From NCBI GenBank assembly GCA_021798415.1, contig JAJZGO010000004.1:1-49970 (forward strand): DNA of 49,970 nucleotides, in the 5' to 3' direction. Position numbers and translations under genes: made by a program. Positions 26,194 to 29,504 of this stretch are shown here, in pieces. Source of the stretch: Thermoplasmata archaeon (lineage in GTDB: Archaea > Thermoplasmatota > Thermoplasmata > Lutacidiplasmatales > UBA184). The stretch's first letter is position 1; every line of letters starts with the position of its first letter. The notes beneath the pieces are model-generated. The model had not been told where the DNA came from. It made no database searches and saw nothing but the letters and a program-made list of their open reading frames with translations.

Positions 26194-26628
26194 ATGCCTC
26201 CGCCGTCCGGACTCAACACTGCGGGTCGCCTGACCCGGCTCCGCCAGCGGCGACGCTGGTCCGACCGGTACTACAAGCGGCGCACCCTCCATCTCAAGGA
26301 ACGGTCCGACCCTCTCGAGGGTGCCCCCCAGGGCCGCGGCATCGTGATCGAGAAGGTCGGGGTCGAGGCGAAGCAACCGAACTCGGCGATTCGAAAGTGC
26401 ATCAAGGTCCAGCTGATCAAGAACGGCCGTCAGGTGACGGCGTTCGCGGTCGGCGACGGGGCGATCAACTTCATCGACGAGCACGACGAGGTCCTCGTCG
26501 AGGGAATCGGGGGCCGGATGGGCCGGTCCTACGGCGACATCCCGGGCGTCCGCTACAAGGTGATCCAGGTGAACAGCGTCTCGCTCGACGAGCTCGTTCG
26601 CGGACGCAAGGAGAAGCCGGCCCGATGA
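26194..26628 (+). CDS. rps12: 30S ribosomal protein S12 (uS12)
   Basis: A 144-aa decoding-centre protein. The block [24 protein letters not shown] (residues 56-78) and [19 protein letters not shown] are almost invariant in archaea. In the second decoding loop I see FAVGDGA (84-90), whereas archaeal S12 normally has a proline at the Val86 position (for example LPGDGA or VPGDGA). The first 12 residues ([12 protein letters not shown]) differ from relatives. It is the first gene of an S12-S7-EF-2 string and overlaps S7 by four bases (ATGA). Confidence 0.97.
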
Positions 26629-27284
26629 GCGGAGCGCCCGAGCCCCTCAGCCCGGAGCCGACCGCCGAGGACGCGGGACCCGTCGTCCAGCGTCCCCAGC
26701 CGCCGCCCCCTCCGCCGTTCGTCCTTCCGCCGCTCTTCGGGAAGTACCCGTTCGAGGGCGTGGAGGTCCACGACCCCGGCCTCCTGCCCTACCTGTACCT
26801 GCACCCCGTCTACACGCCCCACACCGAGGGCCGGCTCACCGGTCGACCGTTCCTCAAGACTCGGATGCACCTGGTCGAGAGGCTCGCCAACCACCTCATG
26901 AAGGGCGGCAAGTTCACCGGTAAGAAGTCGAAGGCGATCACCACCATCCGCAAGGCGTTCGTCGAGCTCGCCCAGAAGGAGGGGAAGAATCCGCTCCAGC
27001 TCCTTGTCGATGCGGTCGAGAACGCGTCGCCCCGAGAGGAGGTCACGCGGCTCCAGTTCGGCGGGATCTCCGTCCCTCGGGCCGTGGACGCCTCACCCGC
27101 CCGCCGTTTGAACGTCGCGATCCGCAACCTCGCGCTCGGCGCGATCCAGTCCTCGCGCAAATCGACGAAGCCGATCCACTCCTGCCTCGCGGACGAGATC
27201 CGGCTCGCGGCCAAGGGCGACCTCACGTCGTTCGCGGTCGGACGGAAGGAAGAGGTCGAGCGGGTCGCGCAGTCGGCGCGCTGA
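26625..27284 (+). CDS. rps7: 30S ribosomal protein S7 (uS7) with Pro-rich N-terminal extension
   Basis: A 219-aa protein that organises the 16S rRNA 3' domain. The conserved body starts near [18 protein letters not shown] and includes [41 protein letters not shown], and the C-terminal [17 protein letters not shown]. About 35 residues before this are rich in Pro and Glu and contain six consecutive prolines, longer than I expect for archaeal S7. The ATG overlaps the S12 stop (ATGA), which fixes the start. The PPPPPP run should need aIF5A for efficient translation. Confidence 0.95.
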
Positions 27285-27302: not shown

Positions 27303-29504
27303 ATGACCCACATTCGTGCTGAGCTCGCGAAAGCCATCCCCGAGATGATGCGCAACGTCGACCGGATCCGCAACATCGGGATCGTCGCGCACATCCACCA
27401 CGGCAAGACGACGCTGTCCGACAACCTCCTCGCGGCGGCGGGGATGATCTCGAACGAGCTCGCGGGCAAGCAACTCTACCTCAACTTCGACGAGCAGGAG
27501 CAGGCTCGCCTGCTCACGATCAACAACGCGGACGTCACGATCGTCCACGAGTTCGAGAACGAGCAGTACCTGATCAACCTCATCGACACGCCCGGCCACG
27601 TGGACTTCGGCGGGGACGTGACGCGAGCGATGCGGGCGGTCGACGGCGCGATCGTCGTCGTCTGCGCGGTGGAGGGCGTCATGGCCCAGACCGAGACCGT
27701 GCTCCGGCAGGCGCTGCGCGAGAAGGTCAAGCCGGTCCTCTTCATCAACAAGGTCGACCGCGCGATCAAGGAGCTCCAGCTCACCCCCGATTCCCTCCAG
27801 AAGCGGTTCGGGTCGATCATCTCCGAGGTGAACGAGCTCATCCGTCGCATGGCTCCCGAGGAGTTCGTCGACGACTGGAGCGTGGACCCCCGGGACGGGT
27901 CGGTCGCGTTCGGTTCCGGCTACGAGAACTGGGCGATCAGCGTGCCGTACATGCTGCGCACCGGGGTCAAGTTCCCCGACATCATCGACTTCGTCTCGAC
28001 CGGACGCTCTCGGGAGATCGCGCAGCGCGCGAAGATCAACGACGTCATCTTCGACATGGTCGTCCGCCACCTCCCGAGCCCGCACGTCGCCCAGCGCTAC
28101 CGGATCCCGAACATCTGGAAGGGCGAGGTCGGCTCGACGATCGGCCAGGCGATGCTCAACACGGACACGAACGGCCCGACCTCGTTCATGGTCACCGACA
28201 TCACGATGGACCCGAGCGCGGGCGAGATCGCGACGGGCCGCGTCTTCTCCGGGCGCATCCAGAAGGGGATGGAGCTGAGCGTCGCCGGGACGAAGATCAA
28301 GGACCGCGTCCAGCACGTCTCCCTCTTCATGGGTCCCGAGCGGCTGATGGTCGAGGAGGTCACCGCGGGCAACATCGCCGCGGTCATCGGACTCACGGAC
28401 GCCTTCGCCGGCACGACGATGTCGGCGGTCCACGACATGACCCCGTTCGAGGAGATCCGTCACGTCTCCGAGCCGGTGGTGACGGTCGCGATCGAACCGA
28501 AGCGGATGTCCGACCTTCCGAAGTTGATCGAGGTCATGCGCAAGATCGCCAAGGAGGACGCGAGCCTCAAGGTCGAGATCAACCAGGAGACGGGCGAGCA
28601 CCTCCTGTCGGGCATGGGAGAGCTCCACCTCGAGATCACGCAGTACCGCATCGTCAACGACTACAAGGTCGAGATCGAGGCGTCGAAGCCGATCGTCGTC
28701 TACCGCGAGGTCGTGAAGCACCCGGGAGGGCCGTTCGAGGGGAAGAGCCCGAACAAGCACAACCGGTTCTACTTCGAGGTCGAGGCGCTCCCCGCGGCGG
28801 TCGTCCAGGCGATCCGGGACGGAGACATCCCGCAGGGAAAGTCGTTCAAGGACACGAAGACGCTGGTCGCGAAGCTCGACCAGCTGGGCGTCCCCCGGGA
28901 CGAGGGTCGCGGGATCGTCGCGGTCGAGGGGACGAACATGCTGTTCGATGTGACGAAGGGGATCCAGTACCTCAACGAGACGATGGACCTGATCGTCGAC
29001 GCCTTCAAGGAGGCGGTCAACCGCGGGCCGCTCGCCAACGAGAAGGTCTACGGCCTCAAGGTCCGTATCGTGGACGCGAAGCTCCACGAGGACTCGATCC
29101 ACCGCGGACCCGCGCAGACGATCCCCGCCGCCCGCTCGGGGATCTACGGGGCGATGGTCCTCGGCGACCGTCTCCTCCTCGAGCCGTTCCAGAAGGTCAC
29201 CGTCAACGTCCCTCAGGAGGTCCTCGCGGGCGCGACCCGGGAGCTCCAGCGCCGACGCGGCGAGATCCTCGACATGACGAGCGTCGGCGACCTGCAGACG
29301 ATCGTCGCGAAGGTCCCGGTCGCGGAGATGTTCGGGTTCGCTTCCGACATCCGCAGCGCGACCGCGGGCAAGGTCCTCTGGGCGACCGAGTCGATGGGGT
29401 TCGAGCCCGTCCCGGGAGAGCTCCAGCCGAAGGTCGTCGGCGAGGTGCGTCAGCGCCGTGGCCTCAAGCCCGAGCCGTACGACGCGGCGTACTACTCCGG
29501 GTAG
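27303..29504 (+). CDS. fusA: Elongation factor 2 with substituted P-loop and switch I residues
   Basis: A 733-aa translocase GTPase. Domain order is normal: G domain with DTPGHVDFGGD (G3) and INKVD (G4), domains II-V with SGMGELHLE and GGPFEGKSPNKHNRFYF, and the diphthamide loop HEDSIHRGPAQ near residue 600. The end KPEPYDAAYYSG resembles Thermoplasma EF-2. Two near-universal positions differ: G1 reads AHIHHGKTT with His32 where Asp is expected, and switch I reads QARLLTINNAD with Leu70-Leu71 where RGIT is expected; Thr72 is kept. Both are clear in the DNA (CAC, CTG CTC). It starts 18 bp after S7 in the str operon. The rest of the protein looks fully functional. Confidence 0.97.
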   Translation: MTHIRAELAKAIPEMMRNVDRIRNIGIVAHIHHGKTTLSDNLLAAAGMISNELAGKQLYLNFDEQEQARLLTINNADVTIVHEFENEQYLINLIDTPGHVDFGGDVTRAMRAVDGAIVVVCAVEGVMAQTETVLRQALREKVKPVLFINKVDRAIKELQLTPDSLQKRFGSIISEVNELIRRMAPEEFVDDWSVDPRDGSVAFGSGYENWAISVPYMLRTGVKFPDIIDFVSTGRSREIAQRAKINDVIFDMVVRHLPSPHVAQRYRIPNIWKGEVGSTIGQAMLNTDTNGPTSFMVTDITMDPSAGEIATGRVFSGRIQKGMELSVAGTKIKDRVQHVSLFMGPERLMVEEVTAGNIAAVIGLTDAFAGTTMSAVHDMTPFEEIRHVSEPVVTVAIEPKRMSDLPKLIEVMRKIAKEDASLKVEINQETGEHLLSGMGELHLEITQYRIVNDYKVEIEASKPIVVYREVVKHPGGPFEGKSPNKHNRFYFEVEALPAAVVQAIRDGDIPQGKSFKDTKTLVAKLDQLGVPRDEGRGIVAVEGTNMLFDVTKGIQYLNETMDLIVDAFKEAVNRGPLANEKVYGLKVRIVDAKLHEDSIHRGPAQTIPAARSGIYGAMVLGDRLLLEPFQKVTVNVPQEVLAGATRELQRRRGEILDMTSVGDLQTIVAKVPVAEMFGFASDIRSATAGKVLWATESMGFEPVPGELQPKVVGEVRQRRGLKPEPYDAAYYSG

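Follow-up and report, generated by a model that had tools for sequence, protein, structure and literature searches.

The cation subsite of elongation factor 2 (EF-2) is, as far as sequence comparison can tell, remodelled throughout one order of Thermoplasmata, and the remodelling is real, clade-wide and specific to EF-2, in an otherwise normal single-copy translocase. It was noticed in a stretch of 49,970 nucleotides (hereafter the window, the whole of the DNA that was analysed), whose EF-2 is without the Asp and Gly ligand residues of monovalent-cation-assisted translational GTPases. The order is Lutacidiplasmatales/TMEG (UBA184, AcS/SubAcS genomes), with a habitat pH below 4.5 (PMC9287336). 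The reading to which we give the most weight, with a probability of roughly 45%, is that of a working translocase whose cation subsite would be rebuilt around His32, the metal probably being dispensable.

The EF-2 gene, its place and its copy number

The gene follows two ribosomal protein genes on the same strand.

26194..26628, + strand: uS12, which opens the str-type operon uS12-uS7-EF-2
26625..27284, + strand: uS7, directly upstream of EF-2
27303..29504, + strand: EF-2 gene (aEF-2, 733 aa), from the open reading frame and TIGR00490; the nearest solved folds are archaeal EF-2

TIGR00490 matches the product over its full length (1083 bits against a cut-off of 738.45, profile positions 2-720 of 720), and the AF2 model has the EF-2 fold, with the Methanoperedens EF-2 with GMPPCP as its best structure match. 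In length, five-domain fold, PGH His, G4, diphthamide loop, operon and single copy it resembles the known archaeal EF-2s (TIGR00490; 6u45 from Methanoperedens with GMPPCP/Mg2+ and 5h7j from Pyrococcus), while it differs from the canonical ones in lacking Asp at 32, Asp61 and Gly70 and in carrying I71L, G45A, P128A and L250F. By its remaining features and its position, the protein is thus classed as an archaeal EF-2, the cation site itself being variant.

Is there a second copy? The genome, a MAG of 94% completeness, holds a single match above the TIGR00490 cut-off, with EF-1A, aIF5B and aIF2-gamma as lower-scoring matches. A second, canonical EF-2 that would make this one a side paralog had been raised as an objection; it was looked for in this search and none is present. 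A single EF-2 was likewise found in the other genomes checked, both of the order and of f35, a family of another class that is discussed below, so a side paralog is ruled out. In both groups the variant gene occupies the usual uS12-uS7 operon. The best reading is that it would be the order's sole working ribosomal translocase.

Altered residues and intact motifs

The residues in question are listed below; switch I reads AR-L70-L71-TIN.

27387..27413, + strand: P-loop AHIHHGKTT, residues 29-37, with gate Ile31 and SRL-contact His30 conserved
27396..27398, + strand: His32 (CAC) replacing the P-loop Asp at position K-3; in 66/66 variant EF-2s, with Asp in all canonical ones
27435..27437, + strand: Ala45, a linked change from the variant/canonical comparison, Gly elsewhere
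27483..27485, + strand: Asn61 in switch I (T-11), replacing an invariant Asp and aligning with EF-Tu Asp51
27510..27512, + strand: Leu70 (CTG) replacing the switch-I Gly at T-2; L/Q/K/C in relatives
27513..27515, + strand: Leu71 (CTC), fixed, replacing Ile (variant/canonical comparison)
27585..27599, + strand: G3/switch II DTPGH with catalytic His99, intact, in invariant columns
27684..27686, + strand: Ala128, fixed, replacing an invariant Pro (MPQT to MAQT; variant/canonical comparison)
28050..28052, + strand: Phe250, fixed, replacing an invariant Leu (variant/canonical comparison)

The earlier note on this DNA had read His32 and Leu70-Leu71 here, and its reading is exact to the codon. Its further statement that all other motifs are intact stands for G3, G4 and the diphthamide loop and fails for residues 61, 71, 45 and 128, which are altered (D61N, I71L, G45A, P128A). 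The invariant columns of the EF-2 alignment include D95-H99, K150-D152 (G4 NKVD), I31 and I73. Also intact are the residues that correspond to those of EF-G for contact with the SRL (His30), for the hydrophobic gate (Ile31 and Ile73) and for catalysis (His99) (PMC6562825). Asn61 and EF-Tu Asp51 both stand eleven residues before the switch-I Thr, and Asp51 has been described as touching the GTP phosphates and Mg2+ (PMC4329189); a literature search on EF-Tu Asp50/Asp80 turned up no papers. In the AF2 model, switch I (residues 55-76) has pLDDT below 50 and the geometry of the site is not readable from it.

For the linked changes, 66 variant EF-2s were compared with 32 intact canonical ones. Among the canonical sequences 164 positions are invariant, and seven of these are always altered in the variants: D32H, G45A, D61N, G70(L/Q/K/C), I71L, P128A and L250F. 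A mixed state was seen in none of the sequences of either group, and this joint loss bears out the claim of the same note that the two cation-site positions changed in a correlated way. Five of the seven fall within residues 20-80, a region with 25 of the 164 invariant positions (p about 0.001, the region being picked post hoc), and the two carboxylates near the triphosphate, D32 and D61, are lost together. Note that the two cation-site positions then went different ways. Residue 70 is L, Q, K or C in the variant group and never Gly, while His32 is invariant. The two His codons both occur, and so do almost all of those for Leu, so that conservation acts at the protein level. Since His32 is fixed while residue 70 drifts, the His would be selected and not just tolerated. 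This suggests that His32 has gained a role and is not merely the trace of a lost site. Gly70, by the same comparison, appears freed from constraint, and His32 adopted and retained.

Distribution in the order and class

Of the 106 genomes of the order 92 carry the HIHHGKTT pattern, among them all 39 with completeness of at least 90%, and every one of the nine genera has it; where it is missing, the genome is incomplete. Alignment of related genomes and independent assemblies, proposed at the outset as a check, showed the same residues in independent assemblies, with residue 70 varying among L, Q, K and C. In a scan of the class, the codon at K-3 does not start with G in 89 of 400 genomes, all within the nine genera of the order, and such a codon is absent from the roughly 300 class genomes sampled outside it. 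Outside the order, the motifs of relatives are HIDHGKTT and RGITIN, and about a dozen EF-2s examined from other archaeal phyla all have Asp/Gly where readable. Sequencing error or chimeric assembly is ruled out by the identical state in dozens of independent assemblies from all nine genera. The variant state belongs to a whole order and to one further family, and is not peculiar to a single genome.

The survey also met irregular EF-2 genes of other kinds. In one MAG (L128, genome G158, family f33) the P-loop reads APIDDGKTTF instead of AHIDHGKTT, a candidate variant or an error. In L129, L130, L131, L132, L133 and L134 (families f11 and f30 of the class) an intein of roughly 200-320 aa splits the P-loop between GK and TT (DHGK-C...HN-TTLSD). 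In a UBA184 contig (L082:3124-3155) an N run in the EF-2 gene shortens switch I, giving a false deletion in any automatic alignment there.

A second holder and probable gene transfer

Where else does the His occur? In a scan of the phylum, among the about 150 matches listed, His at K-3 outside the order is found only in two genomes (G130 and G138) of family f35, with the motifs AHIHHGKTT and ARCLTIN. Their EF-2s are 67-70% identical to that of the window, against 57-65% for the canonical ones in the class to which the window belongs; the classmates of f35, families f46 and f55, have canonical EF-2 by sequence comparison. Two EF-2 trees, one from domains II-V and one from the G domain after removal of the diagnostic sites, join f35 to the order (100/100 and 100/98, respectively), and grouping f35 with its own classmates is rejected (p-AU 0.0017 for domains II-V and 0.0003 for the G domain without diagnostic sites). 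Convergence in f35 is therefore disfavoured by both trees relative to shared descent of the gene. In a tree of uS12 and uS7 the grouping of f35 with the order is not seen, and it is not rejected either (p 0.41 and 0.33). The EF-2 gene has likely moved between the lineage of the order and that of f35.

Other GTPases, the SRL and diphthamide

The EF-1A, aIF5B and aIF2-gamma of the same genome all retain Asp in the P-loop and Gly in switch I (GHVDHGKST/ERGVTID, GHVDHGKTT/AGGITQH and GHVDHGKTT/KRGISIK, respectively), and the change is thus specific to EF-2. The SRL, AGTACGAGAGGAAC, is present without a mismatch in this genome, where it lies within an archaeal LSU rRNA, and likewise in families f2 and f3. 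A change across all translational GTPases or in the SRL is ruled out by these canonical motifs and the exact SRL. The diphthamide loop, LHEDSIHRGPAQ, is conserved in the variant EF-2. Of eight variant genomes tested for Dph2, seven have it; the window's own MAG (94% complete) gave no match in spite of the intact loop, most likely because of an assembly gap.

The canonical cation site

Passages in PMC4342817, PMC4509514 and PMC9599734 describe Asp at K-3 and Gly at T-2 as monovalent-cation ligands, the Asp and the T-2 carbonyl holding K+/Na+ in the canonical free factor. In ribosome-bound EF-G, one Mg2+ is shared by Asp22 and the phosphate of SRL residue A2662 (PMC6562825), and in aIF2-gamma Asp19/Gly44 bind a second Mg2+, which superposes on the RasGAP Arg finger (PMC4357699). 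The switch-I ligand position is not conserved in eEF2, Snu114, Ria1, EFGII and aIF5B (PMC4342817). The catalytic share of the cation is disputed even in canonical factors: it has been reported as a minor contributor on or off the ribosome (PMC4509514, PMC5311926), and EF-Tu Asp21 has been called crucial on the ribosome (PMC5311926).

Against this background, the ligand pair that the earlier note named is half right in its weighting. Both residues are described ligands, and the Gly was overrated, its contribution being a backbone carbonyl only. Since this carbonyl is available from any residue and the position is unconserved in eEF2 and others, the loss of the Asp is the weighty one. The note's suggestion of a "cation-independent or otherwise altered" GTPase mechanism may be called a fair guess.

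Proposed mechanism and alternatives

How might the variant site work? In canonical factors the cation bridges the phosphates of GTP and, once the factor is ribosome-bound, that of A2662 in the SRL too. In the variant, two carboxylates (D32 and D61) are removed and one imidazole is brought in, with the switch-I Gly and its neighbours altered in step. The metal ion would most likely be dispensed with. The imidazole of His32, probably protonated, may be placed between the GTP and SRL phosphates and supply positive charge or a hydrogen bond directly, like the K-3 Arg of atlastins, while His99 of the PGH motif would still position the water.

The atlastin-type GTPases (GB1/RHD3) are the nearest literature parallel for a basic K-3 residue where K+-dependent relatives have Asn/Asp and a cation; they differ in that the residue is an Arg finger (PMC9599734), activation is by dimerisation and the function is unrelated. 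Eukaryotic eIF2-gamma and bacterial EF-G II are translational GTPases that, like the variant, are without canonical cation-site residues (Ala/Asn; Gly in the P-loop), and they differ from it in the replacing residues; eIF2 depends on the GAP eIF5, and EF-G II is a paralog alongside canonical EF-G. Against the His32 reading it can be said that the charge of His is weaker than that of Arg and depends on protonation. A bolder version would make these EF-2s a metal-free class of translocase: the P-loop His would serve as a built-in cationic finger, placed between GTP and the SRL, instead of the Asp-bound cation regarded as shared by translational GTPases, and the gene would have passed between the order and another archaeal class and be functional in both. 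This version seems doubtful to us.

In one alternative the cation site is simply lost: the SRL and His99 would activate alone, the cation would be dispensable, and His32 would be a tolerated filler fixed by ancestral chance. The small contribution reported for the cation on and off the ribosome (PMC4509514, PMC5311926) and the drift of residue 70 speak for it. But His32, N61, L71, A45 and A128 are invariant across EF-2s of about 70% identity, including those of another class, and the crucial role given to EF-Tu Asp21 (PMC5311926) also stands against it; we regard plain loss as unlikely.

It is still less probable that a cation is bound through other ligands, such as a His nitrogen, the Asn61 amide, the residue-70 carbonyl and the phosphates, with an ion preference perhaps fitted to an acidophile cytoplasm. 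Any residue offers a backbone carbonyl, as the unconserved switch-I position of eEF2 illustrates, Ski7 retains its cation with Asn replacing Asp (PMC4509514), and the order's habitat is acid (PMC9287336). However, the His together with the loss of D61 cuts negative charge and disfavours an alkali cation, and other Thermoplasmata retain Asp/Gly.

A comparison with Snu114/EFTUD2, the spliceosomal paralog of EF-2, suggests another possibility. Like the window EF-2, it has His at K-3 (LHSGKTS in yeast and LHHGKT in others, by sequence comparison) and an unconserved switch-I ligand position. It hydrolyses GTP with a kcat of about 1e-3 per s, and Prp8 holds its GTP state, hydrolysis being perhaps unnecessary (PMC7192624). 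With Snu114 as an analogue, a His at K-3 need not aid catalysis, and the variant might be a slower, GTP-holding translocase in which the GTPase rate is lowered and translocation driven mostly by GTP binding. We consider this improbable, since His99, the gate residues and the SRL are all intact and a sole EF-2 must leave the ribosome at each step, which requires hydrolysis. Snu114 also differs in being non-ribosomal and eukaryotic and in its extra N-terminal region: in the window EF-2 about 21 residues precede the G domain, with no Snu114-type acidic extension, and its best matches are archaeal EF-2s, not spliceosomal factors. A PDB chain labelled "Elongation factor Tu, chloroplastic" (8xi2_C) has a Snu114-like P-loop (GHLHHGKTT) and an EF-2-like length, and is probably mislabelled.

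Finally, it is very improbable that the changes shield the GTPase centre from an inhibitor or toxin, or are neutral drift spread by gene transfer: the gene has apparently passed between the order and f35, in the way resistance genes can, but no inhibitor is known to read these residues, and the gene lies in the normal uS12-uS7 operon in both groups with no canonical copy kept alongside.

Significance

No mention of an order-wide His variant of EF-2 was found in the literature searched. The replacement of the near-universal Asp occurs here naturally, in an essential single-copy translocase and with its linked changes included, so the question can be tested directly by exchanging a handful of residues. 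It offers a good natural test case of whether the pair of Asp and cation is needed. It also has a counterpart in nature in Snu114, an EF-2 paralog no longer on the ribosome, in which this P-loop position likewise turned into His. If our reading of the site is right, the cells of Lutacidiplasmatales probably power translation with a rewired GTP-splitting site.
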